Source: a virus
Virus record (IMG/VR): IMGVR_UViG_3300034101_003935
Coordinates: 1 to 38,644 of that record
Strand: one strand, 5' to 3'
DNA: 38,644 bases
Part shown: in pieces, positions 2,352 through 37,821 of the stretch
How positions within the stretch are numbered: position 1 is the first letter of the stretch
Layout of the letters: every line of letters starts with the position of its first letter
Translations under genes and position numbers: made by a program
Notes under the pieces: generated by a model
Database searches by the model: none
The model's input: only the letters and a program-made list of their open reading frames with translations
Told to the model about the DNA's origin: nothing

Positions 2352-3380
2352 TTAAGATTTTTGGCTCCAAGGAAACCACGGTTTTTCACCGCTGAATTTT
2401 TGTTTTAACGAAGAAAAATCATCCGCGAGTCCACCGTATCTTCCGCCTCCTCCGCCTTCTCCGCCGCCTCCTCCGCGAGTTGCGCCCATCGCATTCATAA
2501 GCTCTGCTCCGCCAGTGCCACTGCCTCCAGCAGCAGCCCCAACAAGCCCTCCGACGACGGAACCAAGCATCGGCATCCCCACCATTGAGCCAAGCGCAGT
2601 CCCGCCGATTTGAGCCACTGTTCCTATCATTTTGCTGCGTGCGGCAGCTTTTTGCTCTGCCGCTTTCGCCATACCTTGCGCGTAGTTGTCCCAGCTTTGC
2701 TTGTAAGAATCTGATGCGCGTGACATTGTGTCTCCCATTTTGTTCAGCCAGTCACTGGTCGCTTGATTGGCCTGTCCGACTCTGCCAAACATTGCATCGC
2801 GAAAGCTATTCCGCTGCGTCATGGCATTTTGCAATGCCGATTGGTTTGCGCTTAAAAGTGACCCTGCGTCGAGACCAACATTTTGAAGGGGATTTGAAGC
2901 GAGAAACTGCGCGGCTTCTGCTTTACGCTCTTTGCGAATACGGTCACCTTCCTCAGTCGCTGCATCGAACAGTGCGCTGCGGGCGACAGTGCTATCTCCC
3001 AGACCTGTTTTAACGCCGAGCGTGATGCCAGCATCTTTCGCCCACGACTGCATTCTCTTTTTCCATGCGTCCTCAGACAAGTCCTCCTCAATCATTTTCG
3101 GAAGCCGCTCCCGAATCGCTGCCGCAGCCGGATTTGCTTCTTGCTCGTTTTTCTTGGATTTAAATGCATTGATTGCAGCAATTTGCGCTGCCTGTGTTTG
3201 CAAGCCATCCGGCCCCCAAACATCCGGTGTAAAATTCTCCAGAGGGGCGTTTGCAGCATACCCAAGCTGCTTCATCTCTTGAGCCAAACGGGAACGACCC
3301 TGCTCTCCTTCAAGCTGAACTTTTAAAGCATCAACTGAGAAATCCGGTTTTGCTGGAATCGTTGCTGGTGAGCCACCCAT
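2352..3380 (-). CDS. Internal virion (ejection-type) protein with glycine-zipper segment
   Basis: 342 residues. The first ~250 residues are polar and mostly helical. Residues about 251-290 form a Gly/Ala/Met hydrophobic stretch with GxxxG spacing (MIGTVAQIGG, GSVVGGLVGAAAGG) of a kind that can insert in membranes. A poly-Gly linker at about 302-317 precedes a basic/aromatic tail ending PWFPWSQKS. Such a hydrophobic glycine-zipper module in a mainly hydrophilic virion protein is typical of podovirus ejection proteins, so I infer a role in genome delivery through the envelope. The start joins the upstream stop as TAATATG. Confidence 0.75.
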   Translation of the reverse strand: MGGSPATIPAKPDFSVDALKVQLEGEQGRSRLAQEMKQLGYAANAPLENFTPDVWGPDGLQTQAAQIAAINAFKSKKNEQEANPAAAAIRERLPKMIEEDLSEDAWKKRMQSWAKDAGITLGVKTGLGDSTVARSALFDAATEEGDRIRKERKAEAAQFLASNPLQNVGLDAGSLLSANQSALQNAMTQRNSFRDAMFGRVGQANQATSDWLNKMGDTMSRASDSYKQSWDNYAQGMAKAAEQKAAARSKMIGTVAQIGGTALGSMVGMPMLGSVVGGLVGAAAGGSGTGGAELMNAMGATRGGGGGEGGGGGRYGGLADDFSSLKQKFSGEKPWFPWSQKS

Positions 3381-3768: not shown

Positions 3769-4010
3769 TAGGAGAAGGTTATAACCACGCCATTTTTGTC
3801 TGTCGATGCAGCTTCGAGTGCAGCATCATTTATTTCTGCGAATCGGTTCTCGGATGTCCCGCAAACAACACAAGGCAAGCATTCTGTGTTGTTTTGATTA
3901 CCAAAAGGAATCGACGAATACAGTTGAATCGAGCCATCGTTTCCAAACGGTGATATAAACAAGTTTGGGTATGACTCGATTTTTTTTGTTGCGTCGTCGA
4001 TTGATGGCAT
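3768..4010 (-). CDS. Small protein after the tail nozzle gene
   Basis: 80 residues, start chosen at ATG 4010 because it forms the recurring TAATATG junction with the stop of the nozzle-like gene (TAA at 4014-4012). A longer in-frame extension would run into that gene's coding sequence. The protein contains a CLPCVVC cluster (three Cys) and a C-terminal GVVITFS. It may be a small virion or head-tail accessory protein; no family is recognised. No Shine-Dalgarno sequence is visible, so coupled translation is likely. Confidence 0.7.
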   Translation of the reverse strand: MPSIDDATKKIESYPNLFISPFGNDGSIQLYSSIPFGNQNNTECLPCVVCGTSENRFAEINDAALEAASTDKNGVVITFS

Positions 4011-4011
4011 A

Positions 4012-6135
4012 TTACGGGCAAGGACGTGAGAGACGTTGTTGTTTCGCGGCAACCGTCGCTTCGCGTATCGCTTTGTCGCTGGCAATCTGGTCTGCATCAG
4101 CTTGCGAAACAATAGAAGTCGCAGAGGCTGTTGCTGTTACAGTTATTTTTGGCCCGCCATTCGGGCAAACATCCGTGTAGGTTCTGGTTTGCGAAGAAAG
4201 CCACTGTCGCGCAATCGGAGCTTGAGTTGCGGTTGGAATGTCGATGAGCGCACTCTGCCCATTCTCGCCGACAACGCAGTACTTGGTTTCAATGATTTTT
4301 GTGCCTCCGACCGAGCGTTCGGCCCACGGGTCTTGGAACATTCGCACACCTTCAACTCCGAGCGCACCACACCATTCAATCAGGTAGGAAAACGCCTTGT
4401 CCACGTTTTGCGTATCCTTTGATTCACAAGAAGTTATGCGTGCGTCGCCTTCGATGTTTCGCGTTATCAATCGACGGCTCTGCGTTTGCAAAAGCCCGAA
4501 GTCTTTGACTTTGGCGTAGTCCGGTGAGTTTTTGTACTCGGCGACATTTGTTGCAGCCAAGATGCGCTGGGTCAGGATTTCGTTGTATGCCCCCTTTGTG
4601 CCTCTGTATGAGATTTTTACGTCAACAGTTCCGGAAATCTGAGAGCAATCTACCTCTCCGTAAACGAGTTGCTTCAAATCCATCCCGTCGCCCATGAGTG
4701 CGGTTTCGACCTGACAGTAAATCCGCTGTTGACGCTCTGCGACTGTTCCGCTTGGCCGAATTTCCAAAAACGTATCGTACCGCTCCGGACGGAAAGCCTC
4801 CCAAACGTGATTGAACGACTGGTCTCCCGTGGGAGCGTAATCGACCGACAGCGCAAACAACTTTGGCTCGTTGCCGATGTAAGCGTTGAGCCACTCAATC
4901 GGACGAATCCCCGTCCAAACGCCAGCCCACGCGGGCGAGCGGCTCTGGTTCCATTCAGACGCTGCCGCGTAGTCCAAAACCATCGTCGCAGAGTTCAGCG
5001 GCTCGGCATAGGGAATCGAGGTTAGCAGGTAGTTTTCAAAGGCAGCGCAACAAATGCCCGACAAGTCTGGAGCCATCAATCGCTTGGCTTTCGCCATTTC
5101 GATGTCTTTGTAAAGTACTTGCGATGAGAGGTATGAAGCGGCAGCAACATCGACAGAAACAAGTCCGCCTTGCGAGAACCACCACATCATTCCGGCTTGA
5201 AATGCAATTGACTTTCCAGCGACGCATCCAATGTTCGGATACAGAGTCGTTTGGAAGTTTGCCGTTTGAGGCCAAAGCGTTCTGTCGAGAATTCCGGATG
5301 CGAGCGAATAGGTCGCTCGGTCGGTGAACACATAGAGTCGAGACTCGGTGTTTTGGCCGATGTAATCAACCATCGCAGTGACCGGACGCGGGACGGAGAA
5401 ATCCCCGCGACCTGTGCCGGACTTGCGCTCCTCCCACGAAAGCGGGTCGCCTAAATCACTCGCTGAAATGATATTCCCGCTTGCAAGCCAGAGGCGACTT
5501 CCCGAATAAGCCATCCAGTACCCAACGGGCATTTTGGTTGCGACGTTGCCTGTTTTATTCGAGCCGTCCCAGTAGCACGGCTGCGAAACGCCATCCTGCA
5601 CAATAACCAGCCGATGCGATGGGGTAACGGTTACGTCCCCGCTCGAAACGATTGCGGATTGCGTCGCGATGACAAAGTTGACTTTTTTTACGTCGGCGTT
5701 GAGCCGAATATTAGTCAACCTGTACTCCGCCCAATCGGCTGGTTGCGTCAAAGGGAATGGCGCGTAGTAAACTATGCCATCAACAGCAAACACAAGATAC
5801 GGTATTTCATACTCTTGTGAAGATTCGCCGCTGGGCGTGAAAATGCTTTGAGGCTTGAAAATCAGTTGCCCTTCAGCCGTTTCAATCGTTGTCGCAGCCT
5901 CGTTCTGCTTGTTCGCAGAAAAAACAATTCCGCCTTGAAAATTCCCTTTGGGCAACGAGAGCTTCATCCGGAATCCATTGCGCGTCTGACCTATGCCACC
6001 ACGAATGGTGCAGTTCTGCGCCCACTTGATTTGGTCTTCCGGTAAGGCCCACGGGTTGCGAACGGAGTTGACTCCATGAATCCAGCCCGCGCTGGCTTTC
6101 TGAACGCGCCCAGAAGTGATTTGCGGACTCTTCAT
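4012..6135 (-). CDS. Tail nozzle-like (beta-propeller) tail tube protein
   Basis: 707 residues. The N-terminus (SGWIHGVNSVRNPWALPEDQ) resembles the opening of phage tail nozzle/'stabilisation' proteins, in which conserved Asn, Pro and Leu precede a beta-propeller. The body contains repeated short beta blades with aromatic motifs (RLWLASGN, RLYVFTDRATYSL, MMWWFSQGGLVSVD, AWAGVWTGIRP). Length and its place directly after the adaptor-like 1713-residue gene match the adaptor-nozzle pair of short-tailed phages, where the nozzle caps the tail tube. The C-terminal ~60 residues are Ala/Gln-rich and helical. The start ATG overlaps the upstream stop (TTTTAATG). The assignment rests on architecture, not on a unique motif. 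Confidence 0.65.
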   Translation of the reverse strand: MKSPQITSGRVQKASAGWIHGVNSVRNPWALPEDQIKWAQNCTIRGGIGQTRNGFRMKLSLPKGNFQGGIVFSANKQNEAATTIETAEGQLIFKPQSIFTPSGESSQEYEIPYLVFAVDGIVYYAPFPLTQPADWAEYRLTNIRLNADVKKVNFVIATQSAIVSSGDVTVTPSHRLVIVQDGVSQPCYWDGSNKTGNVATKMPVGYWMAYSGSRLWLASGNIISASDLGDPLSWEERKSGTGRGDFSVPRPVTAMVDYIGQNTESRLYVFTDRATYSLASGILDRTLWPQTANFQTTLYPNIGCVAGKSIAFQAGMMWWFSQGGLVSVDVAAASYLSSQVLYKDIEMAKAKRLMAPDLSGICCAAFENYLLTSIPYAEPLNSATMVLDYAAASEWNQSRSPAWAGVWTGIRPIEWLNAYIGNEPKLFALSVDYAPTGDQSFNHVWEAFRPERYDTFLEIRPSGTVAERQQRIYCQVETALMGDGMDLKQLVYGEVDCSQISGTVDVKISYRGTKGAYNEILTQRILAATNVAEYKNSPDYAKVKDFGLLQTQSRRLITRNIEGDARITSCESKDTQNVDKAFSYLIEWCGALGVEGVRMFQDPWAERSVGGTKIIETKYCVVGENGQSALIDIPTATQAPIARQWLSSQTRTYTDVCPNGGPKITVTATASATSIVSQADADQIASDKAIREATVAAKQQRLSRPCP

Positions 6136-28779: not shown

Positions 28780-29124
28780 TTACGCGAGGGCAGGTTCGGG
28801 TTTCGCTGTCGTAACTTCCTCAACGAAAGCGTTTACCTGCGCGACGAGTTGTGTGTCGATGTGCGTTTCGGCGAGCTTCTTAAGCAGCGTAACTGCCTGA
28901 GCGAGACGCGCTTTCGGCCCTTTGCGAACAGCTTTCCGACCTTTCGGCGCGAGCAACTCACAAGCCTTTTCAAAACCGAGCGCGTGCAGTCGCGTCCAGT
29001 TTGAAACAGTCACGCCGGAGATTCCGTACTTTTGTGCAATCTCGGCGATGGTTGCGGTTTTTCTAGCTTCAGCGACGGACTCAACTTTCGCCCACCGCTC
29101 CTGTAGTTTTTCGATTCTGGTCAT
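28780..29124 (-). CDS. HTH DNA-binding protein, likely transcription regulator
   Basis: 114 residues. A helix-turn-helix spans about residues 24-46 (ATIAEIAQKYGISGVTVSNW), with basic flanks (RKGPKARLAQ) and a C-terminal helix. It is the first gene after a sigma70-like promoter containing inverted and direct repeats, so self-regulation is plausible. It may control the accessory and structural genes downstream. A transposase or recombinase fragment is unlikely given the size and the tidy operon context. The HTH is well supported; its target is unknown. Confidence 0.8.
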   Translation of the reverse strand: MTRIEKLQERWAKVESVAEARKTATIAEIAQKYGISGVTVSNWTRLHALGFEKACELLAPKGRKAVRKGPKARLAQAVTLLKKLAETHIDTQLVAQVNAFVEEVTTAKPEPALA

Positions 29125-31528: not shown

Positions 31529-31604
31529 TGGTGGGATTGGCGGGAATCGAACCCGCGACCAAGCGATTATGAGTCGCACGCTCTAACCTCTGAGCTACAA
31601 TCCC
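31529..31604 (-). tRNA. tRNA with CAT anticodon, probably tRNA-Ile2 (k2CAU)
   Basis: 76 bases including encoded CCA (31531-31529). The acceptor stem is GGGATTG/CAATCCC (7 perfect pairs) and the D stem GCTC/GAGC. The anticodon loop is CTCATAA with a stem that has one U-U mismatch at its base. The T arm is GCGGG-TTCGATT-CCCGC. The anticodon-arm and variable region (GCGACTCATAATCGCTTGG) match bacterial tRNA-Ile2 as I remember it, rather than elongator or initiator tRNA-Met. In Ile2 the C34 is changed to lysidine by TilS so that the tRNA reads AUA. Its 5' end abuts the TerS stop. Confidence 0.9.
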
Positions 31605-33781: not shown

Positions 33782-34056
33782 TCCCATTTGCCCAGCGTGT
33801 GGAGAAACGCCTCTGCGCGTTGGCGTGCGGTGGCTTTTGCGCAGGATGGCTGAGTGTCGCCTAGGTGTACGCAATAAATATCCCACTCATCAAAGGTGGT
33901 CAGCACCTTCTCCGCCTCGTGCATCGCGTTGAGGTCGGAGCAGTAGTCTGGCCACTCAGTAACCCAAACACTGCCTTTGCCATTTGTGCGCACAACTGGC
34001 TTGTTGTTCCACCCACACGCTTCGGCAATAGCGCGGTTGATTTGCTCGTCGGTCAC
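33766..34056 (-). CDS. Phage ABA-sandwich domain protein
   Basis: 96 residues, start GTG 34056 with the 16-base junction repeat. The sequence follows the Phage ABA sandwich pattern: INRAIAEACGW near the N-terminus, WPDYCSDLNAMHEAEKVL in the middle, and ATARQRAEAFLHTLGKW near the end. The family is common in phage early regions and has no known biochemical role. The last four residues (EVQP) are encoded by the junction repeat carrying the next gene's ribosome-binding site. Confidence 0.85.
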   Translation of the reverse strand: MTDEQINRAIAEACGWNNKPVVRTNGKGSVWVTEWPDYCSDLNAMHEAEKVLTTFDEWDIYCVHLGDTQPSCAKATARQRAEAFLHTLGKWEEVQP

Positions 34057-34068
34057 GGCTGCACCTCC
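34053..34068 (-). repeat. Gene-junction repeat J3 (16 bases)
   Basis: Identical to J2 and J4: GGAGGTG, CAGCC, then GTGA as joint start and stop. It ends the zinc-ribbon gene with EVQP and starts the ABA-sandwich gene. Confidence 0.8.
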
Positions 34069-34253
34069 TTTCTCTTGGTTGAGTACTCAACAAAGACGTG
34101 CCGAATCCAGATGTAAGCCTTGCCGCAACTGCCGCACTCACTTTCTCCGCATTCGTCATTGTCGCATCCAAGCTCCCATGAATCATAGTCCTCGCGGCCA
34201 CAGTACGGGCACACGGCGTTGTCTGTGTATTTGTGGTCAATCTTCTTACTCAC
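34053..34253 (-). CDS. Zinc-ribbon small protein, GTG start
   Basis: 66 residues from GTG 34253. Residues 15-46 hold two Cys pairs in zinc-ribbon order (CPYCGRED, then CDNDECGESECGSCGKAY) with extra Cys. A beta-like tail (YIWIRHVFVEYST) and the recurrent EVQP ending follow. This type of stand-alone zinc ribbon is widespread in phages and thought to bind nucleic acid or protein; here that is inference. It overlaps both neighbours by 4 bases through the junction repeat. Confidence 0.75.
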   Translation of the reverse strand: MSKKIDHKYTDNAVCPYCGREDYDSWELGCDNDECGESECGSCGKAYIWIRHVFVEYSTKRKEVQP

Positions 34254-34265
34254 GGCTGCACCTCC
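34250..34265 (-). repeat. Gene-junction repeat J2 (16 bases)
   Basis: Identical to J3 and J4. It lies between the MazG-like and zinc-ribbon genes and encodes EVQP at the MazG-like C-terminus. Confidence 0.8.
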
Positions 34266-34567
34266 TCATCTTTCACGAACGCCCCGCTCGCGGACATCTT
34301 GCCTGTTCGGTGTTTGATTGTGTTCCATGCCCTCGCATAGCAGTAATGCAGGTTCCAGCCGTTCATGGCGCACAGGTTTGTGAGACAAACTATCACATCG
34401 CCAATCGCGTCTACAGCATCATCGCAGTCACCCTTGATGATGGCATCGGCCAGCTCGCCCATTTCGCTAACCGCCTTCAATGTCTGCGCTTTGGAGTCGG
34501 AATGCATAAGTATGCCCCGCGCATCAGCCCACGCGACGACCTGTTGCTCGATTTCTTCAATGCTCAT
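34250..34567 (-). CDS. MazG-like nucleotide pyrophosphohydrolase (second copy)
   Basis: 105 residues. The MazG core is EMGELADAI with Glu35 and Glu38, and DAVDAIGDVIVCL with Asp53 and Asp57. The order and spacing match the first copy at 27734-28069 (WADARGI, KAVSExGELADA, GDxxVCLxN, GKMxxSGxF). This copy has a shorter loop between the acidic stretches. Two copies 6 kb apart in one phage suggest different substrates or a recent duplication. Start ATG 34567 is set by a GGAGGTG-type ribosome-binding site and the 16-base junction. Confidence 0.85.
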   Translation of the reverse strand: MSIEEIEQQVVAWADARGILMHSDSKAQTLKAVSEMGELADAIIKGDCDDAVDAIGDVIVCLTNLCAMNGWNLHYCYARAWNTIKHRTGKMSASGAFVKDEEVQP

Positions 34568-34579
34568 GCCTGCACCTCC
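34564..34579 (-). repeat. Gene-junction repeat J1 (16 bases, two changes)
   Basis: It differs from J2-J4 at two positions (GGCATGA instead of GCCGTGA). It lies between the 89-residue gene and the MazG-like gene and uses ATG rather than GTG. Confidence 0.75.
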
Positions 34580-34833
34580 TTCTTAAGCTCGGCAATCAGC
34601 GCGTCGGCGACTTGGAGTGCAATCATTGCAACTATCTCTGGCCCTCCTGTTTGCTTCACCGGAAAATCGTGGACAATCCCCTGCATCGCCGCACGCGCCA
34701 TCGAAATGCGTTCCCTCTTCCAATCAATCGGCAATGTGATAAATCCATGCGCCAGCGGAGGATTGATAGGCGACGACATACAATGCGGCTCATGGAATTG
34801 ACCGCATACCTTGCAAGCAAATCGTCCGCTCAT
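34564..34833 (-). CDS. Small protein of unknown function with Cys/His cluster
   Basis: 89 residues beginning MSGRFACKVCGQFHEPHC (CxxC plus His and Cys, a possible zinc site). A region of GFITLPIDWKRERISMAR and a C-terminal helix IVAMIALQVADALIAELKK follow. It ends EVQA through the junction repeat. The start overlaps the DUF3310 stop by 4 bases with GGAAGGA upstream. No family is recognised. Confidence 0.7.
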   Translation of the reverse strand: MSGRFACKVCGQFHEPHCMSSPINPPLAHGFITLPIDWKRERISMARAAMQGIVHDFPVKQTGGPEIVAMIALQVADALIAELKKEVQA

Positions 34834-35573: not shown

Positions 35574-35933
35574 CTACTTTGTTTCTTCGTCGCCGTTTTG
35601 GGGCTGTTCTGTTTGTTTTCGGGCCATATCGTTGAGCAGTGACTCCGCAAGGTCGAGAGCAGCGTCCTGTTGCTCCCTCGTCCCTGCCCCTGCAATGACG
35701 AGGTTGTGGAGTGCGCGGACGGTTGCGATTGCGACCGCTCGCATGGGCTGCTCGCCCTGCCACTCGGAGACTACGCGCCACTCCTCCGGCGAGAGGTAGC
35801 TCCCCCCTCGGATGGTTGCGCTTTTTGCCAGTGCTGCCAACGCTGCACCGCAGCCAGACCCCGCCTTTTGGGCGAGGTCGGACAGCGACGGGTTGTTGGC
35901 CCATATTTTGTTGATGATGGGCGTTTTATCCAT
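35574..35933 (-). CDS. Phage protein of unknown function
   Basis: 119 residues with start ATG 35933, overlapping the previous stop by 8 bases (ATGGATAA). It begins MDKTPIINKIWANNPSLSD. A mainly helical, Ala-rich body (SGCGAALAALAKSATIRGG, PMRAVAIATVRALHNLVIAG) and a polar tail follow. A longer in-frame extension would overlap the upstream gene heavily and is rejected. Function is unknown. Confidence 0.7.
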   Translation of the reverse strand: MDKTPIINKIWANNPSLSDLAQKAGSGCGAALAALAKSATIRGGSYLSPEEWRVVSEWQGEQPMRAVAIATVRALHNLVIAGAGTREQQDAALDLAESLLNDMARKQTEQPQNGDEETK

Positions 35934-36735
35934 TGATGAAGCTAGGGAGCCGCGCATAAAACGCGGCGATGAATGCGTCCTTGGCCTTGCGAGCACGGCC
36001 AATCCCAGCGGCCTTGGCGAGGTCTTTGGCTGCTGCCTCGACAACCCATCCGGCGGGGGCGCACCCGCGCTCGATGGCGTTTGCCAGTTCGGCGCAGCTT
36101 TTAGAGTCACGATGATAGGGGTTTGCGAGCGGATACCAGCGACCATTTTGCTCAACCTGAGTCACCAAAACCCGCACTGAGCGCAACTCAGCGAGCAACT
36201 CAGCGTGCTGCTCGGCGCGTGCAGCGGCCTCAGCAGCGGCCTCAGCGCGAGCCGGAGCGAGGAGGTTTGCGATTGTTTTAGCGGCGATGCCGTTTGCGCT
36301 GCGCTGCCCGCCAAAGTTGGTCTCGAACCAGAGGCAATACCGCTCGTCGGACGCGAGCACGTCTGCGATTTTTTGCCCCGCGTATTTTCCCGAAGTGAAC
36401 ACGCTGCTGTCAGCCTCGGCCTGTTGGCGTGCCCAACGAGCGGCCTCAGCAGCCTCCCTGCGCTCCTCCTTCGCTGCCTCAATCTCAGCGGGCGAGATAC
36501 CAACCTTCTCGGCGCAGGTCTCGCCGATGACCTGCAGCTTTCCGCGAAAATCGCGGATGATGACGTTATGGGCGATGTCCCGCCCGCAGTGAGAGCAGAA
36601 GCCGATGCCTTCGACGCGGGGAGCGTCCGCGAGCGCGGCGTTGTATGCGTCGGGGTTAACTTCCGCGAGGCTCGCGGCGGGCCTTGACCAGAATCCGACT
36701 ACCTGACTGTTGCTGAGTTGTTCGAGTGTGTACAT
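35926..36735 (-). CDS. Zinc-ligand protein with treble-clef-like N-terminus and nuclease-adjacent FGK-type motif
   Basis: 269 residues. Residues 47-74 hold FCSHCGRDI and GETCAEKVG (three Cys), resembling small phage zinc modules in which a fourth ligand is His or Asp. Residues 112-141 (SVFTSGKYAGQKIADVL, then ERYCLWFETNF) match the short 'GKYxGxxixdVl..DxxYxxWf' element found beside nuclease domains. Ala/Glu-rich coiled-coil stretches and a basic C-terminus (AAGIGRARKAKDAFIAAFY) complete it. It has its own structured leader. It shares the zinc module with the gene at 37822-38644, with which it may be paralogous. A DNA or RNA role is plausible but unproven. Confidence 0.65.
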   Translation of the reverse strand: MYTLEQLSNSQVVGFWSRPAASLAEVNPDAYNAALADAPRVEGIGFCSHCGRDIAHNVIIRDFRGKLQVIGETCAEKVGISPAEIEAAKEERREAAEAARWARQQAEADSSVFTSGKYAGQKIADVLASDERYCLWFETNFGGQRSANGIAAKTIANLLAPARAEAAAEAAARAEQHAELLAELRSVRVLVTQVEQNGRWYPLANPYHRDSKSCAELANAIERGCAPAGWVVEAAAKDLAKAAGIGRARKAKDAFIAAFYARLPSFING

Positions 36736-36877
36736 TTTTTTGAGTAGTTGAGTTTCGCGGGCGACCGCGCCCGCTTGATATGAATATCGGCCAAAGTTGG
36801 CCGAAAGAAAAGTATTTTTGTTGGGAAACTTGTGTCATACGGAGCGAGGGGTTGCTATCCCCCTCGCCCTCTGCTGC
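36736..36877 (-). promoter_or_regulatory. Structured leader L1, duplicate of L2, before 36735 gene
   Basis: On the minus strand, in order: hairpin 1 (36871-36842, GC-rich, about 10 pairs); a conserved CGTATGACACAA; hairpin 2 (36803-36788, CGGCCAA/TTGGCCG); a conserved near-palindrome GATATTCATATC (36788-36777); hairpin 3 (36774-36757, 7 pairs, four-base loop); GAAAC; and an A run touching the ATG. No Shine-Dalgarno sequence. The same order recurs in L2 (37682-37821). No clear sigma70 boxes were found, so the promoter, if present, is of another type. Confidence 0.7.
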
Positions 36878-37681
36878 TTATGCCTTTGCGGCTGCGTATG
36901 CTTTTCTCGCTCCCTCGTAAACCTCGGAGAGTTTTTCGAGCCTTTCTGCTCCGGCAATCAACTCGGCATTGCCGCTATTGCGAGCAATTCTCGCGAGCTT
37001 GGCAACGGAGTTCGATGTAAAGTACGGGATGTCAACGATTTCCGACTCTTTCGGCCAAACCGGAAGCCTTCCGTCCAAGTCGTAATTTTTTGCGGCAATC
37101 GCTACGCGCCAAAAGGCTTGTTGTTCATCGTACAAATGCCCATTGATAGTCTTTTCCAAGACCTTCTGGAAATGCTCCCCAAACTTGGATAGGTCGCGTT
37201 TCGCGAGTTTCACTGCCCCAGAGAGAGCACGGATACCAGTGCGGGTTGCCTTAGCCGATGCCTCGACTGCCTCAACCTCCCTAACTGTTTTCTGTGCGCT
37301 GGGTGCCCAGTTTGCAAGCCGAGGCTCCGCCCAAAAAATGTAGTTTTTACGCCCAGCTTGCTGACTCCGAGCCAGTTGCCATGCAGTGATTTTGGGGCAT
37401 TTGTCCCAGCGGTTTTTAGCCGTGCTCTCAGGCCGAGGGGTTTCCACAAACTCGGCAACCTGCTTTTTGCGGAGGGCCAGCACTTCCTCCGCGAAGGCTT
37501 TGCAAACCTCGAAGGGGAGTCTGCTTGAGCCTCTGCAAGTTCCCGCTTGGAAGCCATAGGCCAACGTGTAGCCGTGGTCGGCCAAACGATTCGTTTTTCT
37601 GTTCGCTTTTTGCAACGACCCACAAAGTTGGCAGGTGCCGTAGTGCGTTGCCCGATTATTATTGGTGCTATTGGTGCTCAT
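36878..37681 (-). CDS. Zinc-motif phage protein of unknown function
   Basis: 267 residues. N-terminal Cys/His module: GTCQLCGSLQK (Cys17, Cys20), NRLADHGYTLAYGFQAGTC (His36, Cys49), a recurring phage 'CxxCG ... HGY ... G.C' pattern with no known function. It is followed by a charged helical body with basic stretches (ARSQQAGRKNYIFWAE, ATRTGIRALSGAVKLAKRDL) and a C-terminal helix (AERLEKLSEVYEGARKAYAA). The start ATG follows an A-rich leader with no Shine-Dalgarno sequence. It is preceded by the structured leader L2. It may be an early regulator or nucleic-acid binder. Confidence 0.65.
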   Translation of the reverse strand: MSTNSTNNNRATHYGTCQLCGSLQKANRKTNRLADHGYTLAYGFQAGTCRGSSRLPFEVCKAFAEEVLALRKKQVAEFVETPRPESTAKNRWDKCPKITAWQLARSQQAGRKNYIFWAEPRLANWAPSAQKTVREVEAVEASAKATRTGIRALSGAVKLAKRDLSKFGEHFQKVLEKTINGHLYDEQQAFWRVAIAAKNYDLDGRLPVWPKESEIVDIPYFTSNSVAKLARIARNSGNAELIAGAERLEKLSEVYEGARKAYAAAKA

Positions 37682-37821
37682 TTTTTTAGGTAGGTTTTGG
37701 TTTCGCGGACAACTGCGTCCGCTTGATATGAATATCGGTCAACTCTCCTGAGTTTTAAAGTTTTTTTCTCAGGAAGTTGTGTCATACGGGGCGAGGGAGT
37801 TGTCCCCCGCCCCGCAACACG
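37682..37821 (-). promoter_or_regulatory. Structured leader L2, duplicate of L1, before 37681 gene
   Basis: On the minus strand, in order: hairpin 1 (37814-37787, 12 pairs, CAAC loop); CGTATGACACAA; hairpin 2 (37773-37747, CCTGAG/CTCAGG, AT-rich loop); near-palindrome GATATTCATATC (37736-37725); hairpin 3 (37722-37705); GAAAC; and A7 up to the ATG. Compared with L1, hairpin 3 has an A-T to G-C compensatory change and a G-T to G-C change. Its sequence otherwise agrees closely. No T run follows hairpin 1, so it is not a plain intrinsic terminator. Confidence 0.7.

Follow-up and report, generated by a model that had tools for sequence, protein, structure and literature searches.

The window, that is, the whole stretch of DNA that was analysed, is the IMG/VR virus record IMGVR_UViG_3300034101_003935 of 38,644 bases, and the leaders described here lie on its minus strand. 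Two genes of the window are preceded by them: one encodes a protein of 267 amino acid residues (36878..37681, minus strand) that fell into PHROG families of unknown function, and the other a protein of 269 amino acid residues (35926..36735, minus strand) that matched no family and carries a CxxC motif recognized by eye. The gaps before these genes, 37682-37821 (before ATG 37681) and 36736-36877 (before ATG 36735), hold two copies of one unit. When the copy at 36736-36877 was used as the query, the sole other match in the window was the second leader (E 1.5e-15, 75% identity), and the two leaders are homologous. Both gaps were found to have the layout given in the preliminary description (hairpins, a near-palindrome, a third hairpin, an A run and the ATG), and neither ATG is preceded by a Shine-Dalgarno sequence.

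Near-identical IMG/VR contigs (L003/G001, L011/G002 and L015) extend further upstream than the window, whose contig ends within the repeat region, and five more copies were found upstream in L003/G001 and L011/G002. A pattern scan of the viral contig collection returned the leader pair in L003, L011 and L015. The sequence TATGACACAA was counted exactly seven times in each of G002 and G001 and six times in G003, and every contig carries its copies on a single strand; the window copies account for two. The start positions of the copies in G002 are 46821 (c7), 49177 (c1), 50869 (c2), 51624 (c3), 53107 (c4), 54262 (c5, equal to window 37786) and 55209 (c6, equal to window 36839). Over the 9.7-10.6 kb compared, G003 was identical to G002 and G001 differed from it at a single base, and 16 differences were counted between the window and G002 in their 3.6 kb common stretch, with none falling within a unit. 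Every copy was recovered with an E of 5e-17 or better by a seven-copy profile, which the same copies had built, and a degenerate match at G002 52885 was excluded from the seven-copy counts. At least seven copies of the control sequence are present in the phage, and the seven stand before different early genes.

The unit begins with T-ATGACACAASTTCCTGAGAAAAAWACTTTTCTT and continues through a variable stretch, GATAnTC and hairpin 3 to an A/C-rich start region whose ATG has no Shine-Dalgarno sequence. The distance from T/TATGACACAA to AGCGG was 63 nt in six copies and 64 nt in c6, which has one extra base, and TATGACACAA was invariant in 7/7 copies when this base was omitted. Identity by offset was 0.95 over the first 15 nt, 78% at 15-33, 43% at 34-48, 65% at 49-61 and 95% at 62-67; in the flanks it fell to 42% (30 nt before the unit) and 33% (30 nt past the ATG). 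Given this sharp drop at both flanks, the unit spans T-ATGACACAA to the start codon of the gene.

In copy c5 (all features on the minus strand), the conserved block T-ATGACACAACTTCCTGAGAAAAAAACTTTAAAA, a putative promoter or upstream element that includes the invariant TATGACACAA, occupies 37753..37786. It is followed by GATATTCATATC with the -10-like hexamer GATATT (37725..37736), by hairpin 3 (GCGGACGCAGTTGTCCGC, 37705..37722), which was subjected to pairing and arm-swap tests, and by an A/C-rich unpaired tail without a Shine-Dalgarno sequence (37682..37704), which ends in an A run before ATG 37681. The corresponding features of copy c6, also on the minus strand, are the conserved block with its extra base (36805..36839), GATATTCATATC (36777..36788), hairpin 3 (GCGGGCGCGGTCGCCCGC, 36757..36774, tested in the same two ways) and the A/C-rich tail before ATG 36735 (36736..36756). 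The near-palindrome GATATTCATATC, which had been listed as an element of the layout, is confined to the two window copies, but GATAnTC within it is conserved. In the -10-like hexamer, A was found at positions 2 and 4 in 7/7 copies and T at positions 3 and 6 in 6/7.

The tail of the unit ends in AAAAAATG. A start with an A run at the ATG was found in nine genes, namely the seven unit genes and those at G002 49659 and 52184, and the latter two have a C-rich hairpin and a similar tail. Many other genes of the phage, with starts chosen heuristically, are also without a Shine-Dalgarno sequence, so the unit is not unusual in lacking one. Copies c1 and c4 start at or inside the end of the upstream open frame; in c7, a second in-frame ATG is present inside the unit at 46845, so the start at 46923 was our choice. 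In contrast with these A-run starts upstream, a strong Shine-Dalgarno context, GAGGTGCAG, is repeated on the minus strand before small genes at window 34039-34070, 34236-34267 and 34550-34581. Before other early genes, start regions made of a C-rich hairpin, then GC-AACC/AACT and an A-run tail, were also observed at L011 ~485-520, 2656-2690, 3988-4020 and 5180-5215; three of the four are without the 63-bp stretch, the third lies inside the c2 leader, and two are terminator-like on the opposite strand.

The stems of hairpin 3 comprise 5-7 pairs and its loops 4-6 by eye, and the loops vary. Pairing was counted on a short alignment, because MAFFT misplaced the 3' arm in the longer ones. Over the seven copies, all countable cells of the six-pair stem were standard pairs (38/38), and when the partner was slid by 1-3 columns, pairing fell to 19-63%. 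The percentage paired, the number of cells changed on both sides and the covariation score were each reached by 6/500 shuffles; the number of pairs with two-sided change (438/500 shuffles) and that of further pair types (500/500) were not above the shuffles. Four copies have G-C at pair 5 and the other three A-U, and four of the six pairs never vary. When the arms were swapped among copies, the true assignment was matched or beaten by 8 of 5,040 assignments, itself and ties included, and these equals are ties, since the 5' arm is identical within three pairs of copies. Between the window copies, an A-T pair is replaced by G-C and a G-T pair by G-C, as had been claimed. That hairpin 3 is backed by compensatory change holds in these alignments, and this points to selection on RNA structure. 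The hairpin is followed by an A-rich stretch with no T run.

Covarying stems had been proposed in the plural; selection on RNA structure was borne out for hairpin 3 but not for hairpins 1 and 2, which leaves one stem in all. The GC hairpin 1 is found past the stop of the 37822 gene (37788..37813, minus strand) and past that of the 36878 gene (36842..36869, minus strand), in both cases outside the unit, upstream of which no homology was detected at the former. It precedes the two window copies, and an unrelated GC hairpin was seen by eye before c3. Its place in a shared layout had to be given up, given that it lies outside the homology region and that the upstream context is varied in c1, c3 and c4.

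The second hairpin lies at offsets 7-46 in the copy starting at 37786 (an inverted repeat at 37740..37779, minus strand) and at offsets 35-52 in the copy starting at 36839, where a different hairpin, TCGGCCAACTTTGGCCGA (36787..36804, minus strand), takes its place. Different offsets are thus paired, and the two window copies do not share one second hairpin as had been supposed. In one register across the seven copies, no two-sided change was detected; 76.9% of cells were paired versus 77.5% in column shuffles (354/500 as high), and slid registers gave 44-64%. The arms are complementary in c5 and beat shuffled 3' arms in c1, c3, c5 and c6 (p at most 0.012); complementarity was not clear in c2 (p 0.09) and c7 (0.12), and the arms of c4 did not beat shuffled ones (0.83). 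Wobble pairs outnumbered A-C mismatches by 8 to 3, the true arm assignment ranked 964 of 5,040, and in a bulged register that we chose by eye a C/G swap at offset 10 would be compensated in c2 and c6. Folds of the whole unit were below shuffles in 5/7 copies (z -2.0 to -5.1), with -1.4 for c7 and +0.35 for c4. In view of the mixed complementarity, the arm-swap rank and the lack of two-sided change, hairpin 2 was rejected as a conserved RNA stem.

Candidate promoters were scored by a weighted sigma-70 scan, with all positions of the G002 contig as the background. A consensus sigma-70 scan gave 3 sites, one of them inside c6, versus 2.9 expected, and hence no excess. The hexamer at offset 50 reads GATATT in four copies and CATAGT, GAGAGT and GATACC in the others. 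Together with the best upstream hexamer, it falls in the top 0.1-6.4% of G002 contig positions at the same place in 7/7 copies, and it is not the best-scoring nearby site in 6/7. The best nearby scores were 5.9-7.8, versus a median of 5.2 and a 90th percentile of 8.0 for random stretches. ATGACA-17-TACTTT outscored the offset-50 site in c1 and c2, as did a shifted form (spacer 16) in c6, so that two candidate promoters compete within the unit. Over the 150 nt that precede the unit, c7 (6.8) and c6 (5.8) scored above the random median of 5.2 and five of the seven copies below it. No terminator-like site was found in six units on the plus strand of L011:1-8700, and two such sites lie outside the units. 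Among the phage proteins scanned, the one of 3,700 residues included, no RNA polymerase was recognized, many open frames being without a family; a host polymerase is therefore assumed. N4-like hairpin promoters and sigma-54 and sigma-28 motifs, inspected by eye, were rejected because no virion RNA polymerase was recognized among the scanned proteins and required bases are missing. The near-constant length over an interval whose sequence drifts suggests a DNA-protein architecture, and a promoter in the unit is plausible.

The genes of the region lie on one strand. Upstream of the units are genes for Sak4-like, SSB-like, primosomal and DnaC-like loader proteins, and in gene order these come after the gene for a polyvalent protein of 3,700 amino acid residues (L044:122-11224; G002 30122-41224) that carries the ADP-ribosyltransferase domain PF18760 and a GNAT-like stretch; judged from this order, the end of the window contig falls within the gene preceding it. 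Judged by their place, the genes behind the units would be early genes. The nine proteins compared (the seven and the two sharing the tail) showed no paralogy, the best non-self blastp match having an E of 0.021. Seven copies before non-paralogous genes agree well with the earlier suggestion of a portable control element for single early genes. Elsewhere in the window, a tRNA-Met (CAT) gene was noted at 31529-31604.

A search with the terminase of the window yielded 43 loci, three of which are stretches of the same contigs (L118, L119 and L153). By profile search, no copy of the unit was found in the 12 of the other 40 loci that include 6.6-10 kb upstream of the terminase, the mosaic sister L152 included; the preliminary description had looked to related phages for further copies, and none came to light in these loci, but five more were found within the phage itself. 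L152 is 99.8% identical to G002 over 3.5 kb and diverges left of 58,094, where it has no copy, and this breakpoint is not at a copy of the unit. The unit is missing from L151 and L127, where the two window genes have partial homologues (43% over 128 amino acids in the former and 50% over 135 in the latter), so it goes with the early region of the phage, not with the genes; by eye, TTGCCA-17-TTGAAT and TTGCAA-17-TATAAA, respectively, stand in its place. Relatives of the 267-residue protein in the viral contig collection were confined to the same three contigs. Protein searches of a public phage collection gave no match for two proteins, and a DNA search of it gave one weak match, 53 bases of Ruegeria phage RpAliso at an E of 7e-3. 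The one genome match, to a contig of 3,540 bases from a Terriglobia MAG, is too weak to name a host. Neither exact-match pattern scans of viral contigs nor a profile search over 169 loci found the unit outside the phage. The real copies in the exact-match scans were restricted to L003/L011/L015 and the same-contig stretches L083, L112 and L164, and the other matches seem to be due to chance, as is the one match of a scan with the tail pattern. The next profile matches (E 0.007 and weaker) matched the profile in part, and the strongest of them sat at sites that the same patterns had brought up.

A second, unrelated RNA-like motif was observed at L011 ~3790-3866 (G002 ~50759-50835), upstream of copy c2 and outside the window, and at L152 ~3160-3260. 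It consists of a variable stem P1, CATGGTGTGC[A/G]GGGAGANCC[T/C]GCAACG, a hairpin, TGAAACA and P1'. A scan of viral contigs returned at least 120 such stretches, with GAAAC in 108 of the 120 listed; of the 46 distinct P1 arms among those listed, 25 pair over 9-15 nt at the best register, with many sequences, and 17 were folded. The motif occurs in intergenic stretches as well as within open frames (GVQGDPAT). At the Rfam gathering threshold, nothing beyond tRNAs was found in 13 loci, nor in L011 and L152; matches below the threshold were obtained in L011 and L174, the best in L011 being STAXI (E 0.011), which overlaps c2. This motif could be a widespread uncatalogued RNA family.

Taken together, the unit is, on balance, probably a portable cassette of a promoter and a 5' hairpin for single early genes, as judged from sequence comparison. 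The cassette would measure ~100-125 bp, with a promoter inside the conserved 63-bp stretch, and would have been duplicated within the phage. The host RNA polymerase may start within or at the end of that stretch, either from ATGACA-17-WACTTT, with a start at about offset 36, or from TTTTCT-17-GATATT, with a start at the A just before GCGG. The 5' leader would then be short, made up of one hairpin of 5-7 bp and an A/C-rich start region, which would need no Shine-Dalgarno sequence and may itself recruit the ribosome. With the start before GCGG, hairpin 3 would be the first part of the mRNA and could guard it against 5'-end-dependent decay.

A possible but doubtful alternative is that the unit is an intercistronic RNA element in a long early operon with a distant promoter, in which hairpins 2 and 3 would form a processing site (e.g. 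for RNase III) or protect the 5' end after cleavage, and the A/C-rich tail would be the start region. The single strand of the genes, the lack of terminator-like sites on that strand in six units and the sub-median sigma-70-like scores upstream of 5/7 copies all agree with it, and a C-rich hairpin and a similar tail, without the 63-bp stretch, also occur before other genes of the region. The complementary arms of hairpin 2 in several copies and the excess of wobble pairs over A-C mismatches also speak for an operon element, and a pure promoter model does not require the complementarity seen in c1, c3, c5 and c6. However, hairpin 2 shows no covariation, is absent or weak in c4 and has the poor arm-swap rank given above, and a structured RNA need not hold 63 nt while its sequence drifts. 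The invariant 10-mer, the near-constant length and a 5' part that is among the most conserved would suit a DNA site (an operator or a replication or recombination site) or a passive repeat with no leader function; a small protein at window 28780-29124, with weak helix-turn-helix matches below the Pfam cut-offs and the PHROG label 'DNA binding protein', is a candidate regulator. Such a reading is nevertheless unlikely in view of the position directly before an ATG in 7/7 copies and of the selection on hairpin 3.

It is quite unlikely that the seven units constitute one RNA regulon, with a leader of hairpins 2 and 3 and the invariant UAUGACACAA bound by a phage or host protein that would switch the early genes together; no phage-wide post-transcriptional regulon of such a kind was found in the literature searched. 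A short upstream open frame (MTQLPEKKTFLLSGxDRYSF) controlling the gene by translation was also considered, given that homology begins exactly at T-ATG and that the block reads MTQ(L/V) in 7/7 copies and MTQ(L/V)P(E/D)K in five. In this frame, however, pN (0.149) exceeds pS (0.079; 11 codons in six copies, with c6 omitted as frame-shifted), and the differences by codon position were 19/20/28 over 11 codons, with only a small excess at the third, and 73/61/68 when 17 codons were counted. Copy c6 is intact apart from its frameshift and has no stop in the 140 nt read, the peptides of the other six being 17-35 amino acids long, and by eye no Shine-Dalgarno sequence precedes the upstream ATG. With pN above pS, little codon-position bias and the frameshift of c6, a nucleotide-level signal fits better than coding; the block is taken as non-coding, the upstream frame was dropped as the main explanation, and a leader peptide is highly improbable. 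That the leader is a riboswitch, or an RNA switch bound by a protein and peculiar to these genes, is scarcely credible, although it is structured and precedes genes of unknown function: the downstream genes are unrelated, the partial homologues in L151 and L127 are without the leader, the hairpin loops vary, and pattern and profile scans did not find the leader before homologous genes in distant phages. The matches at Rfam gathering level were tRNAs only and no cis-regulatory family reached it (the best weak match, ROSE_3, scored 19.1 bits versus a cut-off of 43), so that riboswitches and ROSE thermometers were set aside.

If the promoter-leader cassette is real, it would be another independent case of one duplicated cassette expressing many single accessory genes, here in an uncultured phage lineage. 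This would suggest that such cassettes arise repeatedly, in T4-type phages, in haloviruses and in the present phage, making new genes expressible at once, and the seven leaders of matched layout would offer a natural series for starts that combine a 5' hairpin and an A/C-rich tail without a Shine-Dalgarno sequence. The promoter early stem-loops (PeSLs), associated with the names Arbiol 2010 and Comeau 2014, reportedly combine strong sigma-70 promoters with a terminator stem-loop, and recombination between copies of such a cassette would shuffle genes. As far as the passages and reference titles in PMC4503421 and PMC3950731 describe them, one of the titles saying promoter-terminator, the PeSLs of T4-type phages resemble the unit as multi-copy intergenic stem-loop cassettes before early accessory genes of a plastic region. 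In contrast, the promoter of the unit is weak or putative and its hairpin has no T run; given this result for the terminator stem-loop, the unit is not filed as a PeSL, although it may work like one without a terminator. PeSL-like motifs are mentioned for the archaeal virus HGTV-1 in a passage of PMC3950731, and the unit, which belongs to a phage, is likened to them by description only. Were transcription to begin at the A before GCGG, hairpin 3 would lie 1-2 nt from the 5' end and so resemble the stabilising 5'-terminal stem-loops of ompA, papA and the T4 gene 32 leader, which are the subject of reference titles in PMC3997798 and passages of PMC8948821. In the archaeal halovirus HF2, according to passages of PMC8707807, seven class I repeats (58 bp) have conserved blocks between variable positions, and nine intergenic repeats were cloned, all with promoter activity; the HF2 repeats are described there as conserved in other members of the genus, whereas the unit was found in one phage in the collections searched. 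The PeSLs, the HGTV-1 motifs and the HF2 repeats are the nearest descriptions found, and the unit looks like a reusable expression cassette of a type known from a small number of other viruses.
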